Origin: Gammaproteobacteria bacterium
GTDB lineage: Bacteria; Pseudomonadota; Gammaproteobacteria; Steroidobacterales; Woeseiaceae
Reading direction: 5' to 3'
DNA length: 52,739 bases
Assembly (NCBI GenBank): GCA_009937505.1
Contig: JAACFJ010000004.1
Span: 1 to 52,739 of the forward strand
Shown: piece after piece, positions 9,206 to 15,003 of the stretch
How the letters are laid out: each line of letters opens with the position of its first letter
Numbering within the stretch: position 1 is the stretch's first letter
Position numbers and translations under genes: made by a program
The notes under the pieces: model-generated
What the model was told of the DNA's origin: nothing
Seen by the model: the letters and a program-made list of their open reading frames with translations, nothing else
Database searches by the model: none

Positions 9206-9281
9206 GGGCGATTAGCTCAGTTGGGAGAGCGCCGCATTCACATTGCGGAGGTCACTGGTTCGAGACCGGTATCGCCCACCA
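9206..9281 (+). tRNA. tRNA-Val (CAC)
   Basis: A complete 76-base cloverleaf including encoded CCA. The acceptor stem is GGGCGAT with ATCGCCC, the D stem GCTC/GAGC, the anticodon stem CCGCA/TGCGG around loop TTCACAT (anticodon CAC, reading GUG), and the T stem ACTGG/CCGGT around TTCGAGA. It converges on tRNA-Leu with 16 bases between the two CCA ends. Confidence 0.95.
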
Positions 9282-9302
9282 CTTTTTTCCGTCGAAGTGG
9301 TG
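9277..9302. terminator. Shared inverted repeat between convergent tRNA genes
   Basis: CACCACTT (9277-9284) and AAGTGGTG (9295-9302) are exact inverted copies around a ten-base loop. The arms include the CCA ends of tRNA-Val and tRNA-Leu, and a run of six T lies at the left arm and loop on the plus strand. It could stop transcription from the Val side, but part of the symmetry follows simply from two facing CACCA ends. Confidence 0.35.
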
Positions 9303-9384
9303 CCCGGGGCCGGACTCGAACCGGCACGTCCTTGCGGACAGCGGATTTTAAGTCCGCTGCGTCTACCAATTCCGCCACCCGGGC
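9298..9384 (-). tRNA. tRNA-Leu (TAA)
   Basis: An 87-base tRNA on the minus strand with encoded CCA (9300-9298). It has acceptor stem GCCCGGG, class II variable arm (GTCCGCAAGGAC) and the anticodon stem GCGGA/TCCGC around CTTAAAA, giving anticodon TAA. It begins 19 bases downstream of the receiver/OmpA-like gene stop codon, so it is probably cut from that transcript. In E. coli the leuZ tRNA with the same anticodon closes the glyW-cysT-leuZ set. Confidence 0.96.
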
Positions 9385-9403
9385 ATTGAATGACTGCGTT
9401 GCA

Positions 9404-10723
9404 TCACTCAGGATACAGGGAAATGTCGACGCGATTGTTGCTCGCGGCGATCTCGTTCCATGCTGCCGCACTGAGGCCAGACGGAGTCGGCGGGTAATCC
9501 AGCAACGGGCTCGAGTTGCCATACGAAATGATCTCGTAGCGGATCGCTCCCTCCGTGCGGGCACGGGCGGCATTGATGAAGTTCGCGAACGCAGCGGTCT
9601 GGCGCAGACCCATTTCATACGCCTCGCTGGGGCCAAAGCCGACCTGGTCGCACTGGTCTGCGGGGCTATCCGGCGCCGCGAGTCCGTATCCGTCCGGGCC
9701 TCCAAAAGTCATGCAGAAATTGCCGACGTGCGATTCGATCCTTACGACCCCACGAAAATCGAGCGCCATGAGGCGATTCGTCAGCTCCTGGAGCATTGAC
9801 ATCCGAAAATCACCCATCGGCATTTCATTGATGCCGTATTGCGACGACTGATTAGCGGCCCATTCCAGTGAATCAAGGGCCACCATCTTCACCTCATCGA
9901 GAGACCGTCGGTACTGGTCCAGTTGCTGACGTACCTCGACAGAATCCTGCGTCGCGCTGACCTGCCCCGCTTCGAGCGCCCGTTGCAGATCAGCGTTCCG
10001 TTGCTCCAATTCCCGCCAGTTGTCTTCGCGATACCAGAAAAGCAACGCAAAAATAATTGCGAGCACACCGAGCGCAACGACAGCACCCTGGAACACATAC
10101 CTGGGTATACCGTTGCGCTCAGGCCTTTCTTCAACCGCCTCTTCCTGCGCCGGTGGCCGAACCTGGTCTGCGACACGCCTCGCAATGATCTCCTGACTGT
10201 CCGCGAGCTCCCGCCGAAGAATGTCGCGCTGCTGATCGAACAGGTTCCGGATCATCTCCTTCAGGTCCTGATCGAATTGATCGAGACTCGGGTATTCTCC
10301 AGAGGGTATCTGGGCCTCATCCCGGTCACGCTTCTCACGCGACTCGGCGGGTTCGCCGATGATTCGCAGGGACTCGAGTACTTTCGACACTTCCACGGGT
10401 TCGAGTTGCTTCGGCAGGACGCCGATAGCGCCAAGCGCGCGGGCCTGGCCGACGTACAACTCGCCCTGCTGTGCGGTGTACATCATGATCGGGATCGTTG
10501 CCGTGACCGGGTTGTCCTTGATAGCCGACACGGCTTCAAGACCGTCCATTCCCGGCATCTCGTGGTCCATGAAGATGATGTCGGGCCGGGACTCGCTCAG
10601 GTATTCAATGGCATCTTCGGCAGATTCTACCGTAGCGACCTCGAGGTCATGGGTCTCGAGAATTCTTTGCAGCACAAGCCGTGCTGTTTCGGAGTCGTCG
10701 ACGACTAAGGCCGTTTTGCGCAA
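9404..10723 (-). CDS. Receiver-transmembrane-OmpA-like fusion protein
   Basis: A 439-residue protein with an unusual domain order. Residues 1-120 are a response-regulator receiver domain: acidic pair D9-D10, phosphoacceptor D53 (FMDHEMPGMDG), T83 and K105. Residues 145-205 are charged and probably coiled. Residues 213-230 are one strong membrane helix followed by Tyr-Arg. Residues 235-285 look like a second coiled coil. The C-terminal ~130 residues contain a region ending NNRVDISLYP that resembles the end of OmpA-type peptidoglycan-binding domains. The expected topology is receiver inside, OmpA-like part in the periplasm. The start is a TTG at 10723, seven bases after GAGGG; the longer open frame runs into the tRNA-Cys gene. 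No histidine kinase is adjacent. Confidence 0.8.
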   Translation of the reverse strand: MRKTALVVDDSETARLVLQRILETHDLEVATVESAEDAIEYLSESRPDIIFMDHEMPGMDGLEAVSAIKDNPVTATIPIMMYTAQQGELYVGQARALGAIGVLPKQLEPVEVSKVLESLRIIGEPAESREKRDRDEAQIPSGEYPSLDQFDQDLKEMIRNLFDQQRDILRRELADSQEIIARRVADQVRPPAQEEAVEERPERNGIPRYVFQGAVVALGVLAIIFALLFWYREDNWRELEQRNADLQRALEAGQVSATQDSVEVRQQLDQYRRSLDEVKMVALDSLEWAANQSSQYGINEMPMGDFRMSMLQELTNRLMALDFRGVVRIESHVGNFCMTFGGPDGYGLAAPDSPADQCDQVGFGPSEAYEMGLRQTAAFANFINAARARTEGAIRYEIISYGNSSPLLDYPPTPSGLSAAAWNEIAASNNRVDISLYPE

Positions 10724-10854
10724 CAATTCACCCTCATTGGCAGCCTCGAAAGTAGCGAATTGAATGCCGCTTGCCGAAGCGCATGGATGGATGATTATGT
10801 CACGACTCACGGGCGGATGCCGAACGGAATCCGGCTCGCGTCGAGAAAGGAAAA

Positions 10855-10928
10855 TGGAGGCTAGGGTCGGAATCGAACCGGCGTCCACGGCTTTGCAGGC
10901 CGCTGCATAACCACTCTGCCACCTAGCC
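10855..10928 (-). tRNA. tRNA-Cys (GCA)
   Basis: A 74-base cloverleaf on the minus strand with encoded CCA (10857-10855). The acceptor stem is GGCTAGG/CCTAGCC and the anticodon loop CTGCAAA gives GCA. The T arm CGCCGG-TTCGATT-CCGACC fits. It lies 131 bases upstream of the receiver/OmpA-like start, in the same direction. Its order relative to tRNA-Gly and tRNA-Leu matches the E. coli cysT position. Confidence 0.95.
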
Positions 10929-11068
10929 TCGGTGCGCGGCGTGAGTACCTTGCGGGACTAAACTACCACAGGACGAGCAGGCGTCGCAGTATACAGTCCC
11001 GCCGTGCAGAATCAATTTGCGCTTGCCCGAATGGAGACGTTTGCCTGGACAGCTTGCATAATAAGCAC

Positions 11069-12283
11069 ATGTATAAACCCCTGGCGATAATGTTGGTCCT
11101 GCTCGCAGGGTGCTCGGCGCCCGACACGCCGCAGCAACCTTCGGTCGATTTGCTCGCGGTTCCCGCGGGTGCGCAAGCGGTGGGGCCGCGGCTTGCAGGG
11201 GGCGGTGGTCAGCCCCTTGTCCTGAGCTGGATGGAGCCCGATGAGACCGGCACGACCCTCTGGTACTCCACATTCGTCGACGAAGCCTGGAGCGGGCCCC
11301 GGGCGGTCGTGTCCGGCAAGAACATGTTCGTCAACTGGGCCGACATGCCGGCCGTTACGGCTCTCTCCGAGGATCACTGGGTTGCGCACTGGCTCGAGAT
11401 GGCCGGCCCCCTGACCTACTCCTACCACGTCGTGATGGCACAGTCGTTCGACGGCGGGCTTAGCTGGTCCGAGCCGGTCAAGCCCCACACAGACGACACG
11501 CCGACCGAGCACGGCTTCGTGTCCGTGTATCCGATTGACGGCAAGGTAGCAGCGATCTGGCTGGACGGCCGCAAGACAGGTAACGACAGCGGTGATCCGG
11601 CGACCTCCGGTATGACGCTGCGTGGCGCCGTCATCGATGCCGACAACGCCCTCCACCACGAGCAGGAAATTGACGACTTGATCTGCGACTGTTGCCAGAC
11701 CGATGTTGCAGTGACGGACGCAGGGCCGGTCACCGTGTATCGCGACCGGACAGTCGACGAGATCCGCGATATCTACGTCGCGCGCCTTATCGACGGCCGC
11801 TGGCAACCGGGTGTGCCGCTCAACAACGACAACTGGCAAATCGCCGGCTGCCCGGTCAACGGCCCCGCCATCACGGCACGAGGGGCCGAACTGGCGGCTG
11901 CCTGGTTCTCTGTTCCGAGTCAGGGGCCCGCCGTGCAGCTGCGGTTCTCGGGTGACGGCGCTGCAACGTTTGACCCGGCCATCAAATTGGCCACGGACGG
12001 TGCCCTGGGACACGTCGACGTCGTAATGCTGTCGGACGGATCCGCAGTCGTCAGTTGGCTTCAGGCCAGCGCAGGCGGGCACGGCAGTCTTGTTCTGCGC
12101 CGCGTGACTCGCGACGGCACACTGGGACCCACGCTGCCGATAGCCAACGGCGCACCTGCGCGATCCGTGCCACAAATGGCGCTGGCAGGTGACGAACTGG
12201 TGCTGGTCTGGACGGAGGCGCAGGACGAAACGAAGCGCATCGTCAGCGCCCGCGTCCCGATCGACTCGGTACCCAGCAACTGA
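11069..12283 (+). CDS. Sialidase-fold (BNR-like) lipoprotein
   Basis: A 404-residue predicted lipoprotein. The N-terminus is a short signal peptide with lipobox LLAGC (Cys near residue 16). The rest is made of repeated beta-strand segments with Asp/Trp-rich turns such as SFDGGLSWSEP, typical of the sialidase/BNR six-bladed propeller. A CDCC cluster at residues 206-209 and a GCPVNGP block around C261 are distinctive. They suggest a disulfide or metal site rather than a classic sialidase active site, whose Arg triad I cannot assign. The substrate is unknown. ATG 11069 is chosen over an in-frame TTG at 11054 because it gives a proper signal peptide. It is transcribed against the flanking tRNA-Cys and tRNA-Gly genes. 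Confidence 0.8.
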   Translation: MYKPLAIMLVLLAGCSAPDTPQQPSVDLLAVPAGAQAVGPRLAGGGGQPLVLSWMEPDETGTTLWYSTFVDEAWSGPRAVVSGKNMFVNWADMPAVTALSEDHWVAHWLEMAGPLTYSYHVVMAQSFDGGLSWSEPVKPHTDDTPTEHGFVSVYPIDGKVAAIWLDGRKTGNDSGDPATSGMTLRGAVIDADNALHHEQEIDDLICDCCQTDVAVTDAGPVTVYRDRTVDEIRDIYVARLIDGRWQPGVPLNNDNWQIAGCPVNGPAITARGAELAAAWFSVPSQGPAVQLRFSGDGAATFDPAIKLATDGALGHVDVVMLSDGSAVVSWLQASAGGHGSLVLRRVTRDGTLGPTLPIANGAPARSVPQMALAGDELVLVWTEAQDETKRIVSARVPIDSVPSN

Positions 12284-12437
12284 TTTGAGCTCGAATCCGA
12301 ACCCGGTGCATGCACCCGGAGCGGGAAATGCGGCGCGCCGGCACTCGTCAAAACCCTGTGGCAAGTTCCTGGCGCGACGAACACGCTCCCGTCGAGCGCC
12401 CCTCAGGGGGGGGCAGCCAAGCCTTCTCCTCAAACGC

Positions 12438-12462
12438 AAAAGGCCGCCCGGTGGGCGGCCTT
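12438..12462 (-). terminator. Rho-independent terminator after tRNA-Gly
   Basis: A perfect 10-bp stem, AAGGCCGCCC (12440-12449) with GGGCGGCCTT (12453-12462), has a three-base loop. Read on the minus strand it lies just beyond tRNA-Gly and is followed by TTTT (12441-12438). It probably ends the icd-udg-uvrC-pgsA-tRNA-Gly transcription run. It may also serve the lipoprotein gene from the other side. Confidence 0.8.
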
Positions 12463-12471
12463 CTTGGCGTT

Positions 12472-12547
12472 TGGAGCGGGAAACGAGGCTCGAACTCGCG
12501 ACCTCAACCTTGGCAAGGTTGCGCTCTACCAACTGAGCTATTCCCGC
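12472..12547 (-). tRNA. tRNA-Gly (GCC)
   Basis: A 76-base tRNA on the minus strand with encoded CCA (12474-12472), acceptor stem GCGGGAA/TTCCCGC, D arm GCTCAGTTGGTAGAGC, and anticodon stem-loop CAACC-TTGCCAA-GGTTG giving GCC. It sits 27 bases downstream of the pgsA stop, the same place as glyW in E. coli. Confidence 0.96.
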
Positions 12548-12574: not shown

Positions 12575-13153
12575 TCAGCCGTTATCGTCCCCGTTCTGGT
12601 CCGCCATGATGAACGGCCACGCGGCCTTGAGGTAAAAGAACATCGACCAGATCGTCATGACGGCAGCAGCGACGAGCAGCACGAAGCCGACGGTGTAAAT
12701 CGGAATTCCGAACAGGTCGTTCTGGTACACCATGAAGGCGATGCCGAACATCTGCAGCGTGGTCTTCACCTTGCCCGAGAACGATACCTGGACGTTGGCA
12801 CGCTCGCCGATCGTTGCCATCCACTCTCGCAACGCCGAGATCGTGATTTCCCGGCCGATGATAATCATGGCGATGATGTCCTCGAACCAGTGCGACTGGG
12901 CCTGGACCAGCATGACCAGCACGATCGCTACCATCAGTTTATCCGCCACCGGATCCAGGAACTCGCCGAACCTCGAAGTCTGGCCGAAACGGCGCGCCAC
13001 CCAACCGTCGATAAAATCGGTCACCGCCGCTATGCCGAAGAGGATCGCGGCAATCGGTCGCGCATTCGGCAGCGGACTGTAGAAACAGATGACGACCGCC
13101 GGAATTGCCGCGATACGAAACAGGGTTAGCAGGATGGCGAGATTGAGTTTCAC
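12575..13153 (-). CDS. pgsA: CDP-diacylglycerol-glycerol-3-phosphate 3-phosphatidyltransferase
   Basis: Makes phosphatidylglycerophosphate, the committed step to phosphatidylglycerol and cardiolipin, at the inner membrane. The 192-residue protein has several membrane helices and the complete CDP-alcohol phosphotransferase motif: D-F-I-D-G-W-V-A-R near residue 46, then G and two Asp in GEFLDPVADK. It starts 14 bases after the uvrC stop, and uvrC-pgsA-tRNA-Gly is a widely conserved gammaproteobacterial order. Confidence 0.97.
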   Translation of the reverse strand: MKLNLAILLTLFRIAAIPAVVICFYSPLPNARPIAAILFGIAAVTDFIDGWVARRFGQTSRFGEFLDPVADKLMVAIVLVMLVQAQSHWFEDIIAMIIIGREITISALREWMATIGERANVQVSFSGKVKTTLQMFGIAFMVYQNDLFGIPIYTVGFVLLVAAAVMTIWSMFFYLKAAWPFIMADQNGDDNG

Positions 13154-13167
13154 GTCTGCGGGAGCCT

Positions 13168-15003
13168 TTAGTGCTGGCCGTCGATGTGCAGGTCATTGTA
13201 TATGGTTTCCGCCAGAGTACGACCGATGCCGCGAACTTTGGCGAGATCGTCGATGCCCGCACCGATGACTCCCTGCAGACCGCCGAACTGACGCAGCAAT
13301 TCGCGACGCTTCTTCGGGCCGAGCCCGGGGATCTGCTCGAGCCGTGACGTGTTGCGTGCTTTCGCACGCCGTTGCCGGTGCCCCGTGATGGCAAAGCGAT
13401 GCGCCTCATCTCGTATTTGCTGTACGAGCAGCAATGCGGGCGAATTCGGCGGCAACTGCAGGGCCATTTTGCGACCCGGCATGAACAAACGTTCCGCGCC
13501 CGGCTTGCGCGCCCTCCCCTTTGCAACCGCAACCACCTGCAGCCAGTCGAGTTCGAGGTCGCGAAGTACCGCAACGGCTTCCGATAGCTGTCCCTTGCCA
13601 CCGTCGACGAAAAGCACGTCCGGCATCGGCACCTCGCCCTTCTTGACGCGGGCGTAGCGGCGCTTGAGGGCCTCCGCAAGCGCCGAGTAATCGTCGCCCG
13701 CCGACGTGGGGCTCAGGTTGAATCGACGGTAGTCGCTTTTGATGGGGCCGGCCGCGTTGAAGACTACGCAGGAAGCGACCGTCGCCTCACCCGAGGTGTG
13801 GCTCACGTCGAAGCACTCGAGCCGCTCCGGAGTTTCTTCGAGTTCCAGTGCCTCGGCCAGCACCTTGAACTGCCGCTGAATCGTCGCATTGCTCGCAAGC
13901 CTGAGATTCAGTCCCTGCTCCGCATTGGTGCGCGCCATTTCGAGCCAGCGCTTGCGGTCACCGCGAACATTACTCTTGATGGCGACTTTGCGGCCCATGC
14001 GAACGCCGAGTTCGGCTTCGAGCAGGTCCCGGTCCTCGATGTCGGTGTCGATGATAATTTCGGCTGGCACGTCGCGGCCAAGGTAATACTGGGCGACGAA
14101 ACTGTTAAGAATCTTTTGTTTGTCGGCTTCGCCCTGCACCCGCGGAAAATGGTCGCGGCTGCCGACAACGGCGCCATTGCGAATGAACAATACCGTAACG
14201 CAATGCGTGCCGCCTGACGTGGCGAACCCGATCACGTCGATATCCTTGCCCGCGCTACGCGATACCAGCTGCCGCGCCTCGATCTCCTTGAGCTTGGCGA
14301 TCTGGTCACGGAAGCGCGCGGCCAGTTCGTACTCCTGCGCGCTCGATGCCGCCTCCATGCGCTCCACAAACGTATTGATCACGCTCCGGTTGCGCCCTTC
14401 CAGGAACTGGATCGCAGCCCCGATGTCGCGGGCGTAGTCATTCTCGCTGATCAGCCCCACGCAGGGCGCGGTGCAACGCCGGATCTGGTATTGCAGGCAA
14501 GGCCGCGTGCGGTTCTTGAAAAACGTGTCGCGGCAGTTGCGGATCAGGAACAGTTTCTGCAGGTCGTTGAGCGTCTGGCGTACGGCACTGGTGCTCGGGT
14601 ACGGCCCGAAATAGCGCCCCTTCCCCGTGCGCGGGCCCCGGTGAAAGCGCAGGCGCGGGAACGGATGGTCGGTGGAAACATAGATGTACGGGTAACTCTT
14701 GTCATCGCGCAGAAGGACGTTGAATTTCGGCTTGTGCTGCTTGATCAGCGTGTACTCGAGCAGCAGCGCCTCGGCTTCGGTATTGGTTACCGTCACCTCG
14801 ACGCGCGCAACGACCTGCATCATCGCCGCGGTCTTAACCGACGTTTGCGTACGGTGAAAGTAGCTCGACACCCGTTTCTTCAGGTCCCGCGCCTTGCCGA
14901 CGTAGATGACCTTGTGTTTGGCGTCGAGCATGCGATACACGCCGGGACGATGGGTCAGCGTGCGCAGAAAGGATTTTGCGTCGAATGCGGCGGCGTCATT
15001 CAT
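13168..15003 (-). CDS. uvrC: Excinuclease ABC subunit UvrC
   Basis: Makes both incisions in nucleotide excision repair with UvrA and UvrB. The 611-residue protein has the N-terminal GIY-YIG nuclease (GVYRML near residue 21, VIYVGKARDLKKRV near residue 34). A cysteine cluster region (RRCTAPCVG) follows, then the UVR segment near residues 205-240 and the RNase-H-like C-terminal nuclease (DVSHTSGE, FVDGGKGQL). It ends with two helix-hairpin-helix motifs (IPGLGPKKRR, KVRGIGRTLA). The uracil-DNA glycosylase gene lies three bases upstream, so the two are probably co-translated. Confidence 0.98.
   Translation of the reverse strand: MNDAAAFDAKSFLRTLTHRPGVYRMLDAKHKVIYVGKARDLKKRVSSYFHRTQTSVKTAAMMQVVARVEVTVTNTEAEALLLEYTLIKQHKPKFNVLLRDDKSYPYIYVSTDHPFPRLRFHRGPRTGKGRYFGPYPSTSAVRQTLNDLQKLFLIRNCRDTFFKNRTRPCLQYQIRRCTAPCVGLISENDYARDIGAAIQFLEGRNRSVINTFVERMEAASSAQEYELAARFRDQIAKLKEIEARQLVSRSAGKDIDVIGFATSGGTHCVTVLFIRNGAVVGSRDHFPRVQGEADKQKILNSFVAQYYLGRDVPAEIIIDTDIEDRDLLEAELGVRMGRKVAIKSNVRGDRKRWLEMARTNAEQGLNLRLASNATIQRQFKVLAEALELEETPERLECFDVSHTSGEATVASCVVFNAAGPIKSDYRRFNLSPTSAGDDYSALAEALKRRYARVKKGEVPMPDVLFVDGGKGQLSEAVAVLRDLELDWLQVVAVAKGRARKPGAERLFMPGRKMALQLPPNSPALLLVQQIRDEAHRFAITGHRQRRAKARNTSRLEQIPGLGPKKRRELLRQFGGLQGVIGAGIDDLAKVRGIGRTLAETIYNDLHIDGQH

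Follow-up and report, generated by a model that had tools for sequence, protein, structure and literature searches.

Two protein genes of probably different age within the pgsA-linked tRNA set of a Woeseiaceae bacterium

In the genome of a gammaproteobacterium of the family Woeseiaceae (assembly GCA_009937505.1), the genes for tRNA-Gly(GCC), tRNA-Cys(GCA) and tRNA-Leu(UAA) follow uvrC and pgsA on one strand, with a lipoprotein gene and a receiver-domain gene lying among them. How did a tRNA set that is compact in Escherichia coli come to hold two protein genes? The DNA analysed, hereafter the window, comprises 52,739 nucleotides of contig JAACFJ010000004.1 (C77 of a 3.09 Mb genome that is 88% complete and is labelled G000 here). 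A sequence-only reading of this DNA had proposed that two genes entered an ancestral tRNA operon. Our comparison points instead to two events of different age as the likely explanation, namely an old arrangement of the lipoprotein gene beside tRNA-Cys and a later insertion of the receiver gene in the ancestor of three species, followed by readthrough to tRNA-Leu.

The lipoprotein gene between tRNA-Gly and tRNA-Cys

The sequence-only reading had placed pgsA, tRNA-Gly(GCC), tRNA-Cys(GCA) and tRNA-Leu(TAA) in this order on the minus strand, with the lipoprotein gene between Gly and Cys on the opposite strand and the receiver gene between Cys and Leu on the same strand; ARAGORN, with which all tRNAs were called, and the open reading frames (ORFs) bore out these coordinates and strands (Table 1). 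The stop codon of the receiver gene occupies 9404-9406, hence tRNA-Leu begins 19 bases past it (9385-9403), as had been counted. The spacings are 1543 bp (Gly-Cys) and 1470 bp (Cys-Leu). In E. coli K-12, glyW-cysT and cysT-leuZ are 54 and 12 bp apart, downstream of uvrC and pgsA, in agreement with the compact cluster to which the window had been likened. The window shares with that unit the order, the anticodons, the single strand and the position downstream of uvrC-pgsA, but it is not compact, has two protein genes inside, and its tRNA-Gly looks like a separate transcription unit. The identical order with both protein genes was found in two further genomes, G085 (L143) and G044 (L145), and therefore does not reflect a local assembly fault.

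The comparison sets comprised 73 genomes of the genus and 107 of the family (the window genome counted in both), 196 sampled genomes of the order (genus included), and 13 outsiders, that is, 12 genomes of other families and E. coli K-12. Spacers were counted in genomes with both tRNAs on one fetched stretch; one genus genome with a seemingly split tRNA-Cys was excluded, and the split itself was rejected, the interruption consisting of unread bases. As determined in this way, Gly and Cys are at least 1 kb apart in 36 of 37 genus genomes and 13 of 14 genomes from other genera of the family, and at most 200 bp apart in 8 of the 13 outsiders. The lipoprotein gene lies antisense between them in 29/37 genus genomes, 11/14 genomes of the other family genera and none of the 13 outsiders, therefore the arrangement appears to be old and of family level. 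Wherever the gene and tRNA-Cys share a stretch, they occupy opposite strands (40/40 in the genus, 13/13 in other family genera), at a distance of at most 350 bp in 40/40 and 12/13 genomes, respectively. No tRNA-Cys was found near the lipoprotein gene in nine fetched regions of other families (L225-L233), nor in the family member G149 (L215). Judged by its position across these genomes, the gene is a native and old, family-level neighbour of tRNA-Cys in most of the Woeseiaceae, and a recent insertion was rejected on the same family-wide position. It is encoded in 47 of the 73 genus genomes and matched at E<=0.001 in 120 of the 196 order genomes, many of these matches being weak. Its occurrence in the Gly-Cys interval switches at least nine times on the tree, and it has therefore also been lost or moved.

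The signs of transcription units lead in the same direction. A terminator was scored as a hairpin followed by a T stretch within 80 bases after each tRNA, with one row per genome and rows of less than 60 bases or with N dropped. After tRNA-Gly the rule was passed in 38/50 genus genomes, 13/19 other family genomes and 10/14 others (shuffled means 4.2, 1.2 and 2.4), and after tRNA-Cys in 4/51, 0/16 and 0/13 (shuffled means 6.2, 1.0 and 1.4). Upstream of tRNA-Cys, a site of the TTGATT-16-TATACT type is conserved in genus and family, reaching p<=0.05 in 53 of the 84 rows scored; p was computed against dinucleotide shuffles with assumed sigma70 frequencies, and the 85 rows found include other families and E. 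coli, with G178 entered twice. Both signs are present in G019, in which Gly and Cys are 163 bp apart with no lipoprotein gene between them (the gene lies on a different contig, with a stop inside), therefore the end of the Gly unit probably lies ahead of Cys whether or not the lipoprotein gene is there. The Gly/Cys junction thus looks like a boundary between transcription units, with the sequence signs favouring at least two of them, and the lipoprotein gene probably splits no operon.

The label "sialidase-fold" given to this lipoprotein applies only by way of its relatives, as BNR_2 was recognized in 10 of 16 family members, while the window protein itself gave no such match at E 0.1. A profile search against the PDB returned no match for the lipoprotein, and its single-sequence structure model was set aside as poor, with a predicted local distance difference test score (pLDDT) of 42.8. 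In the family alignment C211, C213, C214 and C266 are invariant besides C20, a CxCC motif in a gene that adjoins tRNA-Cys.

The receiver gene between tRNA-Cys and tRNA-Leu

A different picture was obtained for the second interval. Among 41 measurable genus genomes the Cys-Leu spacer is at most 40 bp in 29, 41-130 bp in 3 and more than 130 bp in 9, and the tight spacers measure 11-18 bp in 28 of those 29; spacers of at most 40 bp were also found in 9/13 genomes from other genera of the family and in 5/11 others, E. coli among them. By these counts the tight spacer is the common state. The alternative named in the sequence-only reading, that relatives all share the spaced layout, therefore largely applies to Gly-Cys inside the family and does not apply to Cys-Leu. 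The state of the Cys-Leu spacer (wide or tight) changes at least 10 times over 55 tree rows, or 12 times once the four genomes in which Cys and Leu fall on separate contigs are counted as wide. The inserts contain different ORFs on either strand; the idea that inserts are always co-directional was rejected, as some genes point the opposite way. In L185 (G005), tRNA-Cys is inverted relative to tRNA-Leu, the two being divergent and 118 bp apart.

Three genomes, G000, G085 and G044, were the only ones in which the receiver gene was found in the Cys-Leu spacer. These form one clade (support of 98 in the Shimodaira-Hasegawa-like approximate likelihood ratio test, SH-aLRT) in the species tree, built from uvrC and pgsA with a quick method (87 rows; 29 of 84 inner branches starred and 29 open); the sister of this clade is G003 (92), its contig stopping short of tRNA-Cys. 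Copies of about 60% identity occur elsewhere in six genus genomes (G012, G024, G084, G087, G042 and G082, the last with two, one cut by a contig end), G019 has a copy of 34% identity, and a full-length copy is absent from most of the 73 genus genomes. In the order, matches at E<=1e-30 were obtained in 77 of 196 genomes, some of them only across the receiver domain. In the receiver tree all genus copies except that of G019 form one clade (96/99), within which the copies of G000, G085 and G044 group together (100/100). The receiver copies lie at several different loci within one genus (L204-L210), and twice in G082, like a wandering single gene. Homologs of 60% and 48% identity (L267, L272) on short contigs of metagenome-assembled genomes titled Acidobacteriota and Bythopirellula are probably binning strays.

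In three other genera (g19, g22 and g23; genomes G196, G189, G218, G185 and G155), the receiver gene is flanked by a bactofilin-like gene and an 815-residue sensor-like gene, in a neighbourhood whose members we take to be bactofilin, gshA and GGDEF/EAL-like genes. In G000, G085, G044, G024, G066 and G082 the bactofilin-like and sensor-like matches are 139-313 bp apart, which leaves no room for the receiver gene at this home locus, and G000 and G085 also retain the home-locus gene that follows on the bactofilin side. A TG[AC]CATAAT box occurs within 130 bases upstream of 10 of 16 receiver copies, including all 6 copies of other genera and all 3 at Cys-Leu, and the gene thus seems to have brought its own TGACATAAT promoter box into the spacer. 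Its dN/dS ratio (nonsynonymous to synonymous divergence) is 0.10-0.11 and its dS is 0.63-0.83, against 0.61-0.66 for pgsA, therefore the gene was kept and diverged with the species. On the combined comparison of spacers, tree and home locus, the receiver gene is a true, clade-specific insertion into the Cys-Leu pair.

The encoded protein matches Pfam Response_reg (E 2.2e-25), and the residues D10, D11, D54 and K106, corresponding to the acidic pocket, the phospho-acceptor Asp and the Lys, do not vary in alignments of 16 and of 25 sequences. The predicted structure (pLDDT 87) comprises a receiver domain, for which Foldseek returned RR468 and CheY, then two long helices and a confident alpha/beta C-terminal domain; in our reading, the second long helix of the model has a hydrophobic stretch, and our guess is a membrane-anchored response regulator. 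The earlier label "receiver/OmpA-like" stands in its first half. None of 7 C-terminal domains gave an OmpA hit against Pfam at E<=1 (the fold of the domain alone was not searched), a C-terminal profile search found nothing under E 0.68 among PDB sequences, and "OmpA-like" was rejected for want of a Pfam or PDB-profile match.

Expression of tRNA-Leu and the competing explanations

The sister genomes G085 and G044 have 55 bases between the receiver stop codon and tRNA-Leu, holding a TTGTGG-17-[G/C]ATAAT site (p 0.080 and 0.060, neither individually significant). The window has 36 bases fewer, and its best promoter-like site reaches only p 0.353; no promoter specific to tRNA-Leu can thus be recognised in this species, which points to readthrough. 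No terminator was found after tRNA-Cys in G000, G085 or G044 by the hairpin-plus-T rule. A strong promoter gained by every parted tRNA-Leu was rejected, as p<=0.05 was reached in 8 of 30 rows scored (32 found, two with less than 60 bases upstream dropped, genomes with tRNA-Cys on another contig included). Readthrough to tRNA-Leu from the tRNA-Cys or the receiver promoter, followed by processing, would be the simplest reading, and it is workable and has precedent because tRNA-mRNA operons exist and the E. coli unit is essential. In the tufB operon (thrU-tyrU-glyT-thrT-tufB), as outlined in PMC6134099, tRNA genes are followed by a co-directional protein gene in a tRNA-mRNA hybrid operon. Likewise, tRNA-Cys in the window is followed by a co-directional protein gene with no terminator found between; the difference is that the protein gene here is a recent newcomer flanked by a tRNA on each side, and that its co-transcription is putative. 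According to PMC11480407, deletion of the E. coli glyW-cysT-leuZ unit requires a complementing plasmid, and the members predicted to be essential are cysT and leuZ. By this E. coli precedent, tRNA-Leu(UAA) is likely essential in the window species. A further step, which we put forward tentatively as a possibility, is that tRNA-Leu(UAA) has lost its own promoter and depends on transcription through the membrane receiver gene, so that the decoding of UUA would be coupled to signalling-gene expression in a tRNA-mRNA-tRNA unit. The tRNA-Leu(UAA) matters outside E. coli as well.

Therefore, we hypothesize the following sequence of events. In the family ancestor, the lipoprotein gene would have taken up its antisense place next to tRNA-Cys, at a point where one transcript probably ends behind Gly and another begins ahead of Cys. 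In the ancestor shared by the window species and its two sisters, a family-native receiver gene with its TGACATAAT box would have been inserted co-directionally into the short Cys-Leu spacer, leaving it absent from the locus held in other genera, and transcription from the tRNA-Cys promoter, the receiver promoter or both would run on to tRNA-Leu, with tRNA processing freeing both tRNAs. That two genes entered one compact Gly-Cys-Leu operon, as the sequence-only reading had it, accords with the short Gly-Cys spacers (at most 200 bp) of E. coli and 7 of 12 other-family genomes, G025 (88 and 8 bp) and G039 (90 and 12 bp) being compact throughout. This proposal holds for the receiver gene, confined to three sisters in a spacer commonly tight, but not for the lipoprotein gene, whose position is family-wide and old; moreover, a promoter-like site precedes Cys and a terminator follows Gly in 10/14 genomes outside the family, including 5 of 8 compact ones (G033, G034, G037, G038 and G039, not E. 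coli, G025 and G035), and for the pair of genes it seems to us very improbable.

The receiver gene might also be the remnant of an integrative element that entered at the tRNA-Cys 3' end and decayed to one gene. Larger inserts do occupy this junction elsewhere, and extra tRNA-Cys 3' ends (at least 21 of 25 matching bases) stand beside tRNA-Cys or before tRNA-Leu in L162 (G015), L201 (G051), L187 (G022, with two such copies), L181 (G072), L188 (G075) and L194 (G009, whose contig may be chimeric); they are signs of an integration site in the first five genomes and perhaps in G009. These features resemble genomic islands at tRNA 3' ends, but the receiver insertion has neither direct repeat nor integrase gene: no extra tRNA-Cys 3' end was found in the window, L143 or L145, tRNA-Cys gave a single match in the window genome (88% complete), and the Cys-Leu insert of the window contains no integrase ORF, with the receiver ORF nearly filling its 1470 bp. 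As the gene is, in addition, native to the family, such an origin is quite unlikely. Loss from the home locus in the genus ancestor, regain by transfer from a relative and a chance landing between Cys and Leu would account for genus copies at several unrelated loci and for the many genus genomes without a full-length copy. Nevertheless, the genus copies form one clade and those of the window clade diverge in step with pgsA, so this course appears unlikely, and a relocation of the gene is probably the better reading.

Several observations weigh against the two-event explanation that we prefer. A stricter scan of the window found no terminator after tRNA-Gly (3 terminator-like sites versus 2.8 in shuffles), and tRNA-Gly of G044 fails the looser rule as well. 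Wide Cys-Leu gaps in G006, G021, G072, G074 and G077 hold some opposite-strand genes, therefore readthrough is not general, and tRNA-Leu of the window could use a promoter unseen by our scan. Of the six genomes searched at the home locus, only G000 (C44), G085 (C3) and G044 (C34) have a sensor-like match that does not set in before residue 147-174; the gene has a shortened or altered beginning there, therefore the locus changed in more than one way, and that stretch may have gone with the receiver gene. Only 1 of the 7 remaining genus copies has the TG[AC]CATAAT box, which is missing in 5 of the 6 genomes holding them, and the open inner branches of the species tree (29/84) add to the uncertainty.

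Features of the window and significance

Table 1. Genes and sequence signs around the tRNA set, in window coordinates.
Feature	Position	Strand	Remark	Basis
uvrC	13168-15003	-	upstream of pgsA	Pfam
pgsA	12575..13153	-		NCBIfam TIGR00560, 161.4 bits (cut-off 109.1)
tRNA-Gly(GCC)	12472..12547	-		ARAGORN
Terminator-like hairpin, then TTT	12441..12461	-	directly after tRNA-Gly; -18.6 kcal/mol	looser rule; stricter scan silent
Lipoprotein gene	11054..12283	+	antisense to tRNAs; old tRNA-Cys neighbour; relatives BNR/sialidase-fold	ORF
Promoter-like TTGATT-16-TATACT	10988..11015	-	5' of tRNA-Cys; kept in genus and family	promoter scan
tRNA-Cys(GCA)	10855..10928	-		ARAGORN
TGACATAAT box	10794..10802	-	upstream of receiver gene; also upstream of other-genus copies	sequence comparison
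Receiver-domain membrane-protein gene (predicted)	9404..10726	-	inserted in Cys-Leu spacer; start codon TTG assumed	Pfam
19-base spacer	9385..9403	-	5' of tRNA-Leu; 55 bases with promoter-like site in G085 and G044	
tRNA-Leu(UAA)	9298..9384	-		ARAGORN
tRNA-Val(CAC)	9206..9281	+	convergent with tRNA-Leu; context, outside the split set	ARAGORN

The convergent tRNA-Val(CAC) and tRNA-Leu genes, the former left unmentioned in the sequence-only reading, have 3' ends 16 bp apart, likewise in G085 (L144); the only other tRNA-Val among the mapped stretches, many of which end too early to tell, was in L152, about 970 bp from Leu and in the same orientation. Two tRNA-Leu(UAA) genes in G085 were rejected, since the copies lie at the extreme ends of two contigs and were read as one gene cut by assembly. 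In G044, the customary 3' end of tRNA-Gly (L145:1551-1624) and the terminator behind it are both missing, as though a short deletion had run from one into the other, which may be real or an assembly error. A CAAAGACTTA-like stretch recurs directly after the 3' ends of tRNA-Leu and tRNA-Gly at many loci (e.g., L038, L041, L150 and L201), and is perhaps an attachment-site region. In the plasmid collection, none of 290 matching records covers 80% of the query, the listed matches being mostly short pieces at tRNA positions and one with an annotated pgsA. A literature search, not designed to prove the case unpublished, found no description of it.

These findings indicate that a tRNA pair that is likely essential can persist after a protein gene has separated its members, and that the Gly/Cys and Cys/Leu junctions are repeatedly used insertion sites. 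They also correct the view of an E. coli-like single operon as the immediate ancestor, as Gly and Cys-Leu look like separate units. The three sister genomes, two with a promoter-like site before tRNA-Leu and one with none, provide a natural series for the cost of parting tRNA-Leu from its promoter. Overall, the locus represents an instructive but ordinary genome rearrangement around tRNA genes, in which the apparent lack of a local tRNA-Leu promoter is the one point that could raise its interest.

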